Below are positions 11,413 to 16,752 of a DNA stretch of 64,000 bases, piece after piece. Below the pieces are notes generated by a model. That model was not told the origin of the DNA. It saw only the letters and a list, made by a program, of their open reading frames with translations, and did not search any database. How positions within the stretch are numbered: the first letter of the stretch is position 1; the number at the start of each line of letters is the position of its first letter. Both the position numbers and the translations under genes were made by a program. Source of the stretch: Leeuwenhoekiella nanhaiensis (GTDB lineage Bacteria; Bacteroidota; Bacteroidia; Flavobacteriales; Flavobacteriaceae); the NCBI RefSeq assembly GCF_002744755.1, contig NZ_KZ319288.1, forward strand, positions 434,001-498,000. The letters run 5' to 3'.

Positions 11413-12546
11413 TTACATTTTATCCAATTCTATTTTTAATGCTTCAAAAAACTGATCGATTTGTTCGTTTTGAATCGTCAATGGCGGTAGAATACGAATC
11501 AGGTTTTTGTTTTTAGCGCTTCCGGTAAAAATATGCTGATCGTAAATCAGTTTTTTGCGGATGGCAGCCGTATCAAAATCAAATTCCAGACCCAGCATCA
11601 GGCCGCGGCCTTTTACGTTTTTTATCTGCGGAATATCTAAGGTTTTGGCCTTAAAATGATCGGAAACACTCAGGGCGTTAGCCATCAGATTTTCTTCTTC
11701 CAATACTTCAAGCACAGTCAAAGCTGCGGCACAGGCCAGGTGATTTCCGCCAAAAGTGGTACCCAGCATTCCGTATTCTGCCTTTATCGAAGGATGAATC
11801 AAAATCCCTCCTACCGGAAAGCCATTACCCATACCTTTGGCCATTGAGATCAGCTCCGGCTTTACGTTGTATTCCTGAAAAGCAAAGAACTTCCCGGTAC
11901 GGCCAAAACCGGCCTGTACTTCATCTGCAATGAGGCAGGTTCCGGTTTGTTTACACAATTCATCAACACCTTCATAGAATTCAGCCGTGCTGATATCAAG
12001 ACCGCCTACGCCCTGAATAAACTCCACAATCACCGCACACACATCTTCCTTAGCCAAAACCGCTGCCAAAGCATCCAGATCTCCCAGGGGTAGAAATTCG
12101 ACCTCCTGCTGCGCGTTTATAGGCGCTACAATTTTAGGATTATCGGTGGCTGCGACGGCTGCCGACGTTCTTCCGTGAAAGCTGTTGTTAAAGGCGACAA
12201 CTTTTTTTCTTCCGGTAACGAAAGAGGCCATTTTCAGGGCATTCTCGTTCGCTTCTGCCCCACTGCTGCACATAAACAACTGATAGCCGGGTGTATTTGC
12301 CTGAGCGGGTAGTTTTTCGCCTAAAGCCTCCTGCAACGGATTGTGAACCGCGTTGCTGTAAAAACCAATATCGTGCAGTTGTTTGGTAAGATTCTCAATG
12401 TATTTGGGATGCCCGTGACCAATCGAAATCACCGCGTGCCCCCCGTATAAATCCAGATACTTAGTGGGTGTGGCATCATAAACCCAAACGTCCTGAGCCT
12501 TAACCGGCGTCACGTCGTATAACGGATAAACATCAAATAAACTCAT
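11413..12546 (-). CDS. argD: N-acetylornithine aminotransferase (class III, PLP)
   Basis: Converts N-acyl-glutamate semialdehyde to N-acyl-ornithine using glutamate as amino donor. The 377 residues show the class III aminotransferase pattern: SSGAEANENALK (94-105), the PLP-facing LIADEVQAGFGRTG (205-218) and the Schiff-base Lys in SMAKGMGNGFP (Lys237). It starts at an ATG whose last base touches the proC stop (1-bp overlap), so it is coupled to proC. The roughly 150-bp gap downstream to argF' holds one palindromic repeat. Confidence 0.95.
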   Translation of the reverse strand: MSLFDVYPLYDVTPVKAQDVWVYDATPTKYLDLYGGHAVISIGHGHPKYIENLTKQLHDIGFYSNAVHNPLQEALGEKLPAQANTPGYQLFMCSSGAEANENALKMASFVTGRKKVVAFNNSFHGRTSAAVAATDNPKIVAPINAQQEVEFLPLGDLDALAAVLAKEDVCAVIVEFIQGVGGLDISTAEFYEGVDELCKQTGTCLIADEVQAGFGRTGKFFAFQEYNVKPELISMAKGMGNGFPVGGILIHPSIKAEYGMLGTTFGGNHLACAAALTVLEVLEEENLMANALSVSDHFKAKTLDIPQIKNVKGRGLMLGLEFDFDTAAIRKKLIYDQHIFTGSAKNKNLIRILPPLTIQNEQIDQFFEALKIELDKM

Positions 12547-13346
12547 TATTTCTGGTCGGTTTTAATCACGTTAATTTTATTGAATGAGGCCACCATTCCC
12601 TGAATGAGTGATGAACTGAGGCCTTTATGTTCCATCTCGTTAAGTCCTTCTATCGTACAGCCTTTTGGAGTGGTTACACGGTCTATCTCTTCTTCCGGGT
12701 GGTTACCCGATTCGATTAACAGTTTTGAGGCACCGTTACAGGTGTGCATCGCCAGTTCCTGAGCTTCGTGCGCATCAAAGCCTAATTGAATCGCAGCCTG
12801 GGTCGTTGCGCGTATAAGGCGCATCCAGAAGGCAATTCCGCTTGCGCAAACCACAGTCGCGGCCTGCATTTGATTTTCGGGAATGATCAGACTGTTTCCG
12901 AGACGATTAAAAATCGCTTCAGCTACTTTTATGCGTTTCATTCCCTTTTCATTACTGGCCAGGCAGGTCATCGAGGCTCCAACAGCAATCGCGGTATTCG
13001 GCATTGCTCTGATAATAAACTGATCGGTCCCCACTATGGCTTCAATCTGCGAAATCGCGTAGCCGGTAATGGTCGAAATCAGCACGTGCTTATCGGTAAG
13101 TTCGTCTTTAATATCATTAAGAATATTTGCCAATTGTGCCGGTTGCACTGCAAAAATGAGTATGTCTGACTTCTGTACCGCCTCTACGTTATCTGAAGTC
13201 ACAAATACATTCTTATACTCGGCATACGACTCAATCGCCGACGGATTACGCCGGGTCATATACAGCGTGGTGATCGCGTTATTGGTAATTAAACCTTTGG
13301 CTATTGCCAAACCTAGGTTACCGGTTCCTATAATTGCTATTTTCAT
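12546..13346 (-). CDS. proC: pyrroline-5-carboxylate reductase
   Basis: Reduces pyrroline-5-carboxylate to proline with NAD(P)H. The Rossmann motif GTGNLGLAIAKG lies at the N terminus, and the C-terminal dimerisation region has the family pattern TPKGCTIEGLNEMEHKG. The ATG at 13346 is preferred over a GTG three codons upstream (13355) because it lies directly before KIAIIGTG. Length 266 residues is normal. Its place between argC and argD makes sense because glutamate semialdehyde links the proline and arginine routes. Confidence 0.94.
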   Translation of the reverse strand: MKIAIIGTGNLGLAIAKGLITNNAITTLYMTRRNPSAIESYAEYKNVFVTSDNVEAVQKSDILIFAVQPAQLANILNDIKDELTDKHVLISTITGYAISQIEAIVGTDQFIIRAMPNTAIAVGASMTCLASNEKGMKRIKVAEAIFNRLGNSLIIPENQMQAATVVCASGIAFWMRLIRATTQAAIQLGFDAHEAQELAMHTCNGASKLLIESGNHPEEEIDRVTTPKGCTIEGLNEMEHKGLSSSLIQGMVASFNKINVIKTDQK

Positions 13347-13348
13347 AA

Positions 13349-13520
13349 TCCTCACCCCCAGCCCCTCTCCAAAAGAGAGGGGAGTTGGATTTATTTTTAA
13401 AATTTTATTTTCATTTCCGTGAAGACGGAAATCTTTTGTCCTCCCCCCTAACTCCTATTCGAAGGAGAGGGGAGTTTGAATAATTTCTCATTAAAATCCC
13501 CTTTTGGGGGTTTGGGGACC
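13349..13520. repeat. cluster of three GC-rich palindromic repeat units between argC and proC
   Basis: Three units lie in the 170-bp gap: 13349-13388 (CTCACCCCCAGCCCCTCTCC, then AAAAGAGAGGGG), 13439-13475 (CTCCCCCCTAACTCC with GAAGGAGAGGGG) and 13496-13518 (CCCCTTTTGGGGG with TTTGGGG), the last abutting the argC stop. Between the first two, TTTCCGT-GAAG-ACGGAAA forms a perfect hairpin. They resemble the dispersed intergenic palindromes common in Bacteroidota genomes. Confidence 0.8.
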
Positions 13521-14497
13521 TAAAAATAACTCCCTTTTAAATTAAGGCCTTCGGTTTGCGGAAGGCCAAAAATCAAATTCATATTTTCTACCGCCTGTCC
13601 TGATGCTCCTTTAAGCAGGTTATCAATGCAGCTCGTGATGAGCAACTGATTGCCGTGCTTGTGCAGGTGAATCAGACACTTGTTTGTATTCACCACCTGT
13701 TTCATATGTACTTCAGAATCTGAAATAAAGGTGAATGGTGCTTCAGCATAAAAATCCTCGTAGATCTTTTTCGCTTCAGCCAGATCGCCCTCAAAAGGGG
13801 TGTATGCCGTTGCGAAAATCCCACGTGAAAAATTACCGCGATTCGGCAAAAAGAAAATTTCGTTATCAAACGCTCCCTGTAACTGCTTTACCGTCTGGTT
13901 GATTTCGCCCATATGCTGATGCGTAAAAGGCTTATAATACGAAAAGTTGTTATCACGCCAGGTATAATGCGTAGTTGCCGAAAGCGAAGTTCCTGCCCCG
14001 GTGGCACCGGTTACCGCATTGATGTGCACGTTTGACTTTATTTTTTTGGCATCGGCCAAAGGAAGCAAAGCCAACTGAATAGCCGTTGCAAAACAACCCG
14101 GATTTGCGATAGAACCGGCCTGCTTTATGGCATCGCGGTTTAATTCGGTGAGACCGTAAACGAACTCGCGTCCCTGAAACTCCGCATCGGGTTTGAGGCG
14201 AAAATCATTGCTTAAATCAATGATGATGGTGCTTTCGGTAAACAGGTTTTCTTCTAAAAAAGCTTTCGAATTTCCGTGACCCAGGCATAAAAAAACAACA
14301 TCCACGTCAAAATCAATAGTTCCCGAAAAACGCAGGTGCGTACTTCCCAGTAAATCCTGATGCACGTCACTCAACAGATTTCCTGCATTTGAGGTGCTGT
14401 AGACAAAGCTCAATTCAACATACTGATGGTTTAACAAAATACGCAGCAGTTCTCCTGCAGTGTATCCGGCTCCTCCAACTATTCCGGCTTTGATCAT
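13520..14497 (-). CDS. argC: N-acetyl-gamma-glutamyl-phosphate reductase
   Basis: NADPH-dependent reduction of N-acyl-glutamyl phosphate to the semialdehyde, third step of arginine synthesis. The 325 residues start with the Rossmann motif GIVGGAGYTAGELLR; the catalytic Cys is in SIANPGCFAT (Cys135). A conserved His region follows (TTHYTWRDNN, FTHQHMGEI). The ATG overlaps the argG stop by 4 bp (ATGA), indicating translational coupling. The C terminus (LKGSYF) ends directly at a palindromic repeat. Confidence 0.96.
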   Translation of the reverse strand: MIKAGIVGGAGYTAGELLRILLNHQYVELSFVYSTSNAGNLLSDVHQDLLGSTHLRFSGTIDFDVDVVFLCLGHGNSKAFLEENLFTESTIIIDLSNDFRLKPDAEFQGREFVYGLTELNRDAIKQAGSIANPGCFATAIQLALLPLADAKKIKSNVHINAVTGATGAGTSLSATTHYTWRDNNFSYYKPFTHQHMGEINQTVKQLQGAFDNEIFFLPNRGNFSRGIFATAYTPFEGDLAEAKKIYEDFYAEAPFTFISDSEVHMKQVVNTNKCLIHLHKHGNQLLITSCIDNLLKGASGQAVENMNLIFGLPQTEGLNLKGSYF

Positions 14498-15741
14498 GAG
14501 TTTCCGTTTACGTGGTTGTAAATCTTATTCTGGTTACCGGTGATTTTGATAAAGCCTTTGGCATCTTCGGCGGTCCAGCCTTTGTTCATTTCGCCGTAGG
14601 CTCCAAAAGAAGCGTTCATCAAATCGTGCTTAGACTGAATACCTTCCAGCGTAAAGCGATACGGCTGCAGGGTTACGTACACCTCACCGGATACATTTTT
14701 CTGGCTATCGGTCAAAAAGGCTTCCATATTGCGCATTGCAGGATCGAGATACTGCCCTTCGTGCAGGTGCATTCCGTAGAAATTAGATAAATAGTCTTTA
14801 TGCTGCATTTGCCATTTGGTAAGCGTGTGCTTCTCCAACAAATGATGCGCTTTGATGATGATCAGGGGCGCAGCAGCTTCAAAACCTACCCGACCTTTGA
14901 TCCCGATAATGGTATCGCCTACGTGAATATCGCGGCCAATTCCATAAGGAGCAGCAAGTTTTTGAAGGGCTTCAATATTTTCTACCGGAGTGCTGGTCTT
15001 GCCATTTACGGCTTTGAGTTCGCCTTTTTCAAAAGTCAGAGTCACCTGCTCAGCTTCACTTTTTTGAACTTGTGAAGGATAAGCCGATTCCGGCAGACCC
15101 TTGTGTGAAGTCAGGGTTTCACTACCGCCAACGCTGGTTCCCCAAAGTCCGCGATTTACCGAATACTTGGCTTTCTCCCAGGCCATTTCTACGCCGTGAC
15201 TTTTTAAGTATTCTATTTCCGCTTCGCGCGAAAGCTGTAAATCCCGTATTGGGGTGATGATTTCTATTTTGGGGGCCAAAGTTTGAAAGATCATATCAAA
15301 ACGCACCTGATCGTTACCCGCGCCGGTACTGCCGTGTGCCACATATTTGGCACCGATTGATTTGGCATAATTGATAATCTCAACTGCCTGAATGATACGC
15401 TCAGCACTTACCGAAAGCGGATAGGTATTGTTTTTAAGGATGTTTCCATAAATCAAATACTTCACTACCTTATCGTAAAAGCGGTCAACCGCCTGAATAT
15501 TTTTATAGGTCTTAGCTCCGATTTTTAGAGCCTTTGATTCGATTTCGTTAATTTCTTCCTGCGAAAAGCCTCCAGTATTGATGCTCACGGCGTGTACTTC
15601 GTAGCCTTTATCGGCAGAAAGGTATTTGGCGCAATAACTGGTATCAAGACCACCGCTGTAGGCCAGTACGAGTTTTGCTCCGGCAGGGTTTGCCGCCGGT
15701 ATTTTTGTATCTGTAGTTTGTGAATGCGTTGTTGAATCCAA
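14494..15741 (-). CDS. argG: argininosuccinate synthase
   Basis: ATP-dependent joining of citrulline and aspartate. The PP-loop AYSGGLDTS lies at about residues 28-36 after a low-complexity Ser/Thr/Ala N-terminal extension of some 20 residues. AHGSTGAGNDQVRFD near residue 135 and the NRGLWGTSVGG segment match the family, and the 415-residue length is normal. It is the second gene of the operon, 44 bp after the GNAT gene and overlapping argC by 4 bp. Whether the extension is translated is not certain, as no nearby downstream ATG offers a better start. Confidence 0.95.
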   Translation of the reverse strand: MDSTTHSQTTDTKIPAANPAGAKLVLAYSGGLDTSYCAKYLSADKGYEVHAVSINTGGFSQEEINEIESKALKIGAKTYKNIQAVDRFYDKVVKYLIYGNILKNNTYPLSVSAERIIQAVEIINYAKSIGAKYVAHGSTGAGNDQVRFDMIFQTLAPKIEIITPIRDLQLSREAEIEYLKSHGVEMAWEKAKYSVNRGLWGTSVGGSETLTSHKGLPESAYPSQVQKSEAEQVTLTFEKGELKAVNGKTSTPVENIEALQKLAAPYGIGRDIHVGDTIIGIKGRVGFEAAAPLIIIKAHHLLEKHTLTKWQMQHKDYLSNFYGMHLHEGQYLDPAMRNMEAFLTDSQKNVSGEVYVTLQPYRFTLEGIQSKHDLMNASFGAYGEMNKGWTAEDAKGFIKITGNQNKIYNHVNGNS

Positions 15742-15785: not shown

Positions 15786-16442
15786 TTAATGGTGTTCCTT
15801 TTTTTCTTTTCTCAAAAAGAGATGTTCCTTGATGCTTTTGAGACGTGTAAAAGCCTTCGGATTTAGTTTTTTGTCTTTTTTTTTAAGCTCTTCCGGATTT
15901 TCTGCTTTCTTCTTTTCCTCCTTGGCCGGATCGTAAAGCATCCCGGTGCAAAGACACATCTTCTGCTCGGTTCGCTGTAAAATGTCGTAATTACGACAGG
16001 TTTGACAGCCTTTCCAGAAGGTAGGGTCATCGGTAAGCTCTGAGAACGTAACCGGTTTGTAACCCAGTTCTGAATTGATTTTCATCACTGCAAGACCGGT
16101 AGTGATCCCAAAAACTTTGGCATCGGGATATTTTGTGCGCGAATGTTTAAAAATGGCTTCTTTAATCTGCCGGGCAAGACCGCTGCCCCGGTAATCAGGA
16201 TGTACGATAAGACCGCTATTGGCTACAAATTTACCGTGTCCCCAGGCCTCGATGTAGCAAAAACCGGCAAACTTGTCGCCGTCTAAAGCGATAACCGCAT
16301 TACCGTTTTCCATTTTGGTAATTACATATTCTGGAGTGCGCTTGGCGATACCGGTACCGCGTACTTTAGCAGATTCTGCGATCGTGTCGCAAATGTATTG
16401 TGCATATCCCGCATGGGATTTGTTAGCAATGGTAATTTCCAT
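15786..16442 (-). CDS. GNAT acetyltransferase, probable N-acyl-glutamate synthase of the arg operon
   Basis: A 218-residue GNAT protein with the acetyl-CoA loop in HPDYRGSGLARQIKEA (near residue 85). As first gene of an arg operon that lacks argA and argJ, it is the best candidate for acylating glutamate in the first step. This is inference from position and family, not a recognised ArgA signature. A cysteine cluster (CQTC, then CLC about 20 residues on) after the GNAT core could bind a metal. The C terminus is a long Lys/Glu-rich tail (PAKEEKKKAENPEELKKKDK). The gene follows an arginine-rich leader ORF. Confidence 0.8.
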   Translation of the reverse strand: MEITIANKSHAGYAQYICDTIAESAKVRGTGIAKRTPEYVITKMENGNAVIALDGDKFAGFCYIEAWGHGKFVANSGLIVHPDYRGSGLARQIKEAIFKHSRTKYPDAKVFGITTGLAVMKINSELGYKPVTFSELTDDPTFWKGCQTCRNYDILQRTEQKMCLCTGMLYDPAKEEKKKAENPEELKKKDKKLNPKAFTRLKSIKEHLFLRKEKKEHH

Positions 16443-16532
16443 ATTCTTTAGAATTGGAAGTTAGAAAAAAAGTGAAAATGAAATTTGATTTGAAGACGGA
16501 ACCGGACTCACCTAAGTTCCCAATAAAACTGC

Positions 16533-16594
16533 ACCCACTAGGGGCGGCGACGCTCATGGCGACGTACGGGGATAAATACTAAAGAATTGTGGGT
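16533..16594 (-). promoter_or_regulatory. leader RNA pairing segments of the putative arg attenuator
   Basis: ACCCAC (within the leader ORF) and GTGGGT (at its stop codon) can form a 6-bp stem in the transcript. Further downstream GGAAC and GTTCC (about 16503-16525) can form a second 5-bp stem. CACTTTTTTT lies about 45 nt later, before the first gene. Confidence 0.45.
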
Positions 16595-16678
16595 CTCTCT
16601 AGCAACAGGATATAAAGAATGGAACAAGGCACTTACGGCTTGTTTAAATTCTTCCATATGTATTGTTATTCCCTTCAT
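16538..16678 (-). CDS. arginine-rich leader peptide upstream of the arg operon
   Basis: A 46-codon ORF between the probable arg promoter and the first arg gene. It begins MKGITIHMEEF (a second in-frame ATG at 16657 gives 39 codons) and ends VRRHERRRP before TAG, so five of the last eight codons are Arg (CGT, CGC, CGT, CGC, CGC); one more Arg (AGA) lies upstream. The RNA segment ACCCAC inside the ORF (16589-16594) is complementary to GTGGGT directly around the stop codon (16533-16538), so ribosome position would decide this pairing. This resembles leader peptides of ribosome-mediated attenuators. No strong U-tailed terminator was found in the 95 bp before the GNAT start, so the output step is unproven. 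Confidence 0.65.
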   Translation of the reverse strand: MKGITIHMEEFKQAVSALFHSLYPVARETHNSLVFIPVRRHERRRP

Positions 16679-16694
16679 TTGTTGTGCTAAAATA

Positions 16695-16752
16695 CAAAGT
16701 AGATTTAAATGACACTCCCTTTTTAAAGGTAAATATCACATAAATCTACTTT
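16695..16752 (-). promoter_or_regulatory. arg promoter region with 12-bp perfect inverted repeat
   Basis: AAAGTAGATTTA (16696-16707) and TAAATCTACTTT (16741-16752) are perfect inverted repeats with a 33-bp spacer. On the minus strand the arm nearest the leader ORF contains TACTTTG, a shortened match to the Bacteroidota -7 element TAnnTTTG, ending 17 bp before the leader ATG. The arrangement fits an operator overlapping the promoter; the binding protein is unknown. A smaller CCTTT/AAAGG repeat lies inside the spacer. Confidence 0.5.

Follow-up and report, generated by a model that had tools for sequence, protein, structure and literature searches.

A conserved arginine-codon leader and two RNA hairpins precede the arg operon of Flavobacteriaceae: a candidate sensor of arginyl-tRNA charging

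Introduction

In the trp, his and ilv attenuators the operon mRNA begins with a leader ORF rich in codons for the pathway product. TnaC, which ends Pro-stop, responds to tryptophan and SpeFL to ornithine, and the fungal arginine attenuator peptide senses arginine. The repressor ArgR controls arg genes in many bacteria.

The nearest described case found for the leader reported here, and the sole Arg-codon leader to stand out in the literature search, is Salmonella orf34-speF; in the parts of that report covered, consecutive Arg codons lie in the leader, pausing at low arginine alters folding of the downstream RNA, and Rho is involved (PMC6386406). Among the matches listed in the search, which took in few subscription papers and no supplements, there is no arginine leader of Bacteroidetes. 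Clues to leader-peptide attenuation before amino-acid operons have been described in Flavobacterium psychrophilum (PMC9723704), with arg unnamed in the parts covered, and the parts covered of a paper on leader genes in general mention neither arginine nor argG (PMC4833913).

Results

An Arg-rich leader ORF at the head of the arg operon

The window (the whole 64-kb stretch of Leeuwenhoekiella DNA that was analysed) contains a short leader ORF at the head of the arg biosynthetic operon, with 95 nt between it and the GNAT gene; the transcript start is placed by the promoter box only. The features are:

16687..16694, minus strand: TATTTTAG, the likely -7 box of the promoter, placed 16 nt ahead of the leader ATG and differing by one mismatch from TANNTTTG
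16538..16678, minus strand: leader ORF ('ORF2' type), 46 codons, ATG to TAG, from sequence and comparison
16564-16559 and 16552-16544, minus strand: Arg codons of the leader ORF, whose 3′ end reads CGC CCC TAG
16532..16546, minus strand: hairpin P1, CGCCC-CTAGT-GGGTG, with the last Arg and Pro codons as 5′ arm and the stop codon in the loop
16521..16531, minus strand: linker between P1 and P2, 6 of 11 T in the window; U-rich and G-poor across 138 relatives
16498..16520, minus strand: hairpin P2, GGAACT-TA-GG-TGAGT-CC-GGTTCC, with a covarying stem and a strongly conserved core
16443..16497, minus strand: A/U-rich, G-poor stretch before the GNAT start, by composition
15786..16442, minus strand: GNAT acetyltransferase, first gene of the operon
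14494..15741, minus strand: argG, argininosuccinate synthase
13520..14497, minus strand: argC, N-acetyl-gamma-glutamyl-phosphate reductase
12546..13355, minus strand: proC, pyrroline-5-carboxylate reductase
11413..12546, minus strand: argD-type transaminase, scoring below curated cut-offs

The leader translates as MKGITIHMEEFKQAVSALFHSLYPVARETHNSLVFIPVRRHERRRP and its C-terminus, VRRHERRRP, is followed directly by TAG. The earlier note had given it 46 codons and five Arg among the last eight residues, both correctly, and it is alone in the window in having at least five Arg there (1 of 693 ORFs of 20–60 codons, taken from both strands with the first start codon). The GNAT protein at the operon head contains a number of Cys residues and ends in a Lys-rich tail; its similarity to curated families and to solved structures is no more than weak, and it may be the first enzyme of the arginine pathway, which is otherwise missing.

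The reading preferred here, and judged probable from the sequence comparisons, is that ribosome stalling at the CGU/CGC codons would serve the arg operon as a sensor of arginyl-tRNA charging, acting through P1 and P2.

Distribution of the element and of ArgR

A covariance model of the leader 3′ part (R1) has matches in 167 of 249 family genomes at E<=0.01 and in 156 at E<=1e-5 (the latter counted by hand); there is one match in 156 of the 167 matched genomes and two in the other 11. The wider samples contain matches in 27 of 296 phylum and 26 of 196 order genomes, those with E below 1e-8 all being in Flavobacteriaceae and the remainder weak. At the strong-hit loci examined (n=43) argG is beside the hit in 43 and GNAT in 42, and neither is beside any of the 15 weak hits examined. 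Among the element-negative genomes outside genus g112 (18 sampled of 82), 17 are without GNAT. Genus g112, probably Flavobacterium, has a GNAT homologue in 10 of 11 sampled genomes, and no Arg-rich short ORF was found within 330 nt before GNAT in 10 g112 genomes and one genome of another genus. Five g112 genomes (L242-L246) have a common, different leader in these 330 nt, ACTTCTCCCGAAGTACGGA, with no Arg-rich short ORF, and three named Flavobacterium loci (L092-L094) have a related two-ORF layout with few Arg.

A search for the ArgR N-terminal domain (PF01316) gave no match in the genome containing the window and matches in 2 of 249 family genomes, one of them just over the curated cut-off and both inside 312-residue frames; positive controls were detected in 9 of 14, Bacteroides among them. 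By this search, Flavobacteriaceae seem to be without the usual arginine repressor.

Conservation within Leeuwenhoekiella

At least five Arg are found in the last nine leader residues in 11 of 13 genus genomes. L012 and L013, which have the most divergent layouts, keep the P2 core in the 300 nt before GNAT, where the best tails that could be found contain 0 and 2 Arg, respectively; P2 may outlive the sensor. An alignment of nine sequences (the window and eight named Leeuwenhoekiella, leaving out the divergent L012/L022, L013 and L014 together with L007, although the separate Arg-tail count took all 13) contains ORFs of 44, 45 or 46 codons, always in frame. The variable columns at codon positions 1/2/3 number 0/1/7 in the last 11 codons and 10/10/12 in codons -12 to -25, indicating that the Arg end is kept and that the rest of the ORF is without codon-level constraint in this genus test. 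Absence of the ORF or its Arg codons from close relatives, which the earlier note named as counting against the proposal, thus applies to the two genomes with 0 and 2 Arg; the other 11 keep both, and the changes at the C-terminal end are at third positions.

Arg codons and reading frame across the family

Similar leaders with an RRP-stop end are located before GNAT-argG across Flavobacteriaceae, so the Arg-codon leader for a whole bacterial arg operon, put forward in the earlier note as an unusual arrangement, is kept in relatives and supported. A scan of GNAT genes took the best 80 of 93 loci, and AGGYGNGTCC is present before the GNAT start in 77 of the 80. The input set of 204 (the window plus 80, 43 and 80 loci) was reduced to 189 kept and 15 dropped, and to 138 non-redundant at 90%. 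The 189 were chosen by AGGYGNGTCC, a stem and a P1-like sequence, and the P2 stem and core counts are thus partly by construction. The 15 dropped are 12 strong model hits and the three divergent Flavobacterium loci L092-L094; seven of the 12 have variant cores (L142, L184, L186, L200, L205, L209 and L211) and five have the standard core and failed the stem/P1 filter.

Of the 138 leaders, 124 have a stop codon 21–28 nt ahead of the P2 core; the remaining 14 have no stop at P1 and read on, some with RRL or RRT replacing RRP. Pro precedes the stop in 120 of the 124 and Arg is at -3 in 113 (Arg at -2 is fixed by the anchor), and the last 11 codons contain from 1 to 6 Arg, most commonly 4. Outside P1, at codons -4 to -12, Arg is encoded at 286 of 1116 positions in frame versus 57 and 28 in the out-of-frame readings. 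Counted over 39 non-overlapping pairs, the last 10 codons (P1 included) have 29/27/55 substitutions at codon positions 1/2/3 and the preceding 20 codons have 120/119/116. Equal accumulation of synonymous and nonsynonymous change, the second observation that the earlier note set against the leader, is therefore seen in the upstream part of the ORF, whereas the last 10 codons are biased toward third positions.

The Arg codons outside P1 are predominantly CGU/CGC (239 of 286, with 16 AGA), whereas in GNAT and the long downstream frames of 53 loci Arg is encoded by AGA (43%), CGU (19%) and CGC (11%), with CGU and CGC together at 30%; the comparison is descriptive, as related sequences are not independent. 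This preference favours sensing of codons, through one tRNA, over sensing of the peptide, although the bias could instead reflect optimal-codon use or RNA structure.

Sensing by the nascent peptide, in which free arginine (or a relative) would trap the ribosome at Arg-Arg-Pro-stop and the trapped ribosome would set the fate of P1 and P2, is considered quite unlikely. The prevalence of Pro before the stop (120/124) and of Arg at -3 (113/124) is consistent with it, as is the near-constant spacing from the stop to P2, but the RRP-stop is also dictated by P1, 14 of the 138 leaders have no stop at P1 and some of these have RRL or RRT, and the choice of CGU/CGC is strong. Moreover, the conserved residues along the exit tunnel that mark an arrest peptide are absent, the codons before the last 10 being free of codon-level constraint (120/119/116). 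The earlier note allowed for either codon stalling or sensing in the ribosome tunnel; the data fit codon stalling, and argue against a long tunnel-sensing arrest peptide.

Hairpins P1 and P2

P1 has a register with at least four contiguous pairs in all 124 leaders (a count without a control), and its loop usually contains the stop codon. P2 in the window begins 17 nt past that codon, which by the size of the ribosome footprint places it just downstream of a terminating ribosome. The P2 stem has at least five pairs in all 138 leaders and at least six in 123, compared with means of 78 and 47 and maxima of 88 and 63 when 3′ flanks are swapped, in a set pre-filtered for a stem of at least four pairs. 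Alignment A1 has 54 rows (the window and 53 of 57 non-redundant loci, with L029, L072, L083 and L087 left out by hand) and contains five pairs that change on both sides, one in P1 and four in P2, a number reached in 0 of 500 shuffles. Structures slid by 1–3 columns on A1 give 0 to 4 such pairs, with 21–58% of cells paired versus 91.8%. The outermost P1 pair is broken in 14 of the 54 rows. The inner G-C pair of P2 is replaced by A-U in L142, L186 and L200.

The P2 core is GG-UGNGU-CC, of which the UGNGU loop is the most constant part among the sequences compared and the A preceding GG is variable; it is held in 59 distinct stem flanks, and seven of the strong model hits outside the retained set have close variants of it. 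Unguided RNAalifold on A1 does not find P1 or P2 and proposes CGCC:GGUG instead; on the alignment of genomes with two leaders it finds P1, P2 and a further hairpin, P0 (below). The leader sequence folded by itself is no more stable than its shuffles (z -0.14), and the structure thus rests on comparison rather than on folding energy. With a ribosome masked in the folding, the P1 arm is paired at 0.93 with the ribosome at -8 and at 0.0 with it at -3; P2 formation is nearly constant across the modelled positions (mean 0.53–0.65), so this folding decides nothing about P2.

Several other pairings and functions were considered and rejected. The earlier note proposed pairing of ACCCAC with GTGGGT; both are present in the window (16594-16589 and 16538-16533), but ACCCAC is limited to the window and L015 among nine aligned Leeuwenhoekiella, and the conserved partner of GGGTG is the CGCCC of the Arg-Pro codons. 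Pairing of the CGCC of the Arg-Pro codons with the GGUG of the P2 core has a covariation term of 0, and Zunongwangia has a CGCAC/GTGCG P1 yet retains AGGTG. P2 is not followed directly by a T-run, as an intrinsic terminator would be. As a Shine-Dalgarno-like AGGUGA it would include the variable position, which is A in 105 of the 138 and otherwise in 33, and no suitably spaced start was seen by eye. A scan downstream found no strong intrinsic terminator; its one candidate was P1, with a weak tail, against 0.3 expected. The window also contains an ilv leader (25596-25488, minus strand; MKKQVVIIRSIRVIRQASLMRNGIQ) of classic appearance, followed by a GC-rich hairpin with T9 and a gene that is presumably ilvD-like; the likeness drawn earlier between the two leaders is not supported, no such terminator having been found after the arg leader.

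Rfam 15 has nothing at gathering scores and five chance-like matches at E<=5, none of them on P1 or P2, which therefore match no known Rfam family, riboswitch or T-box. The 'GUCCY-hairpin' of Bacteroidetes (PMC2864571) is set beside P2 by name alone, its consensus lying outside the parts covered. The P2 core pattern occurs five times in the genome containing the window (four besides the leader) versus 10 for the reversed pattern; one of these four, L098, has the same TTAGGTGAGTCC and falls within an unrelated long ORF. The strong P2 hits examined are all before the arg operon, and P2 offers a short, defined RNA with which to find the readout.

P1 and P2 might instead form an RNA that binds a ligand or a protein (riboswitch-like, or a repressor site), with the ORF merely clearing or timing them. 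This is judged improbable, although the P2 core is kept in all 138 leaders (which were selected on it) with close variants in seven further strong hits, the stem flanks are of 59 kinds, the bulge followed by GG-pentaloop-CC resembles a recognition hairpin, 156 of the 167 hit genomes have a single model match, and two genus genomes have P2 without the Arg-rich tail. However, a binding RNA leaves unexplained the in-frame Arg codons outside P1, the third-position wobble and the spacing of start codon and promoter.

Start codon, promoter and upstream repeat

Of the 124 leaders, 54 have a start codon at precisely 31 codons ahead of the stop; the counts at other distances are 24 at 9 (within the tail codons), 18 at 27, 15 at 30, 11 at 26 and fewer than 10 elsewhere. 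The sequence TANNTTTG, which we take to be the Bacteroidetes -7 element consensus, is located 13–17 nt before the ATG in 26 of the 68 leaders that have an ATG 20–50 codons before the stop, and there are two hits elsewhere within -60..+20; the reversed pattern has nine hits, none of them 13–17 nt before the ATG. By comparison, the leader is probably translated.

An inverted repeat with 28-nt arms, 75% complementary, is situated just upstream of the -7 box in the window (16696-16752). Its arms AAAGTAGATTTA and TAAATCTACTTT are invariant in the nine aligned Leeuwenhoekiella, and the only exact copies of AAAGTAGATTTANNTGA in the genome are the two within it. The operator-like form of this repeat suggests control by a transcription factor as well.

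A second leader in many genera

An earlier Arg-rich ORF (ORF1, with at least three Arg in its last nine residues) is present in 74 of the 138 non-redundant leaders versus 5 of 138 on the reverse strand. It is 17–25 codons long in 72 of the 74, CGC accounts for 196 of its 293 Arg codons, and a -7 box is located 11–14 nt before its ATG in 23 of 65, with six hits elsewhere. ORF1 lies ~230 nt before GNAT in L024-L091 and others (e.g. MITSLNKNERPTSLPTRRRRR), and a terminator-like helix with a U-tract is located before the main leader. Column covariation and folds suggest that this helix pairs the ORF1 start with the stretch just before the U-tract; it has at least six pairs in 42 of 66 two-leader sequences with a U-tract, compared with a mean of 29 and a maximum of 38 in 60 swaps, and together with the U-tract it resembles the terminator of an attenuator, placed upstream of the main leader. 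Hairpin P0, within the main leader, has seven pairs kept in 49–60 of 70 aligned sequences with many pair types. Leeuwenhoekiella showed no Arg-rich ORF1. In Sinomicrobium (L035 and L043) a hairpin and T-run, noted by eye, are located before the leader at the place of ORF1 in other genera. Lineages with one leader, those with two, and the pair of Leeuwenhoekiella genomes that have no Arg run provide natural variation with which the role of each part can be dissected.

It is very improbable that the RNA is regulatory and the Arg codons a mere by-product of CG-rich pairing, with the peptide irrelevant: P1 does force CGC-CC, and P0 other codons in two-leader genomes, but Arg is enriched outside P1 mainly in frame 0 (286 versus 57 and 28 of 1116) and a separate Arg-rich ORF is present upstream (74/138 versus 5/138).

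Discussion

The comparison supports the ORF, its Arg codons and frame, P1, P2 and the link to the arg operon. From these we infer translation of the leader, stalling as the signal, the sign of control and a readout, as follows. The preferred reading is that arginyl-tRNA would be measured by a leader ORF close to the start of the arg operon transcript. At low levels of charged tRNA-Arg, the ribosome would idle on the clustered CGU/CGC codons, chiefly at the near-universal Arg-Arg before the stop, and would keep P1 open, since the 5′ arm of P1 is formed by those codons. With ample arginine, the ribosome would complete the ORF and depart, P1 would close over the stop codon, and closed P1, the U-rich linker and P2 would lower expression of GNAT-argG-argC-proC-argD. 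The sign of control is not forced, because P1 would remain free to form with a ribosome held at the upstream Arg pair (-8/-7).

Four readouts are envisaged. P1 and the U-rich, G-poor linker might make a weak stop or pause site, and a transcriptional stop or pause at this place is possible but doubtful; much the same may be said of a factor or ligand bound to P2. Action through Rho is rather less to be expected, and so is action on GNAT translation.

A wider reading is offered tentatively, at somewhat short of even chances: in the ArgR-short Flavobacteriaceae the arg operon would be governed by a ribosome-read leader whose output passes through a new P1 and P2 element in place of a classic terminator, doubled in many genera. 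It would explain control of arginine synthesis in a large bacterial group apparently without ArgR.

Like the trp, his and ilv attenuators, the leader has clustered end-product codons ahead of the matching biosynthetic operon; unlike them, in the window it has no strong terminator that the scan could find after it, and has the conserved P2 core instead. Like TnaC, SpeFL and the fungal peptide it would act near the stop codon, but its upstream residues are unconstrained and its Arg codons are conserved with a choice of CGY. With Salmonella orf34 it shares a short leader ORF with consecutive Arg codons, although orf34 controls ornithine decarboxylase in a different bacterial group, and its readout, in the parts of that report covered, is through Rho, RBS unfolding and RNase G (PMC6386406); the two are compared here by their leaders. 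Set beside orf34, whose target in the parts covered is a polyamine gene, the leader described here would add a case in which Arg codons serve as the sensor for an entire arg operon.
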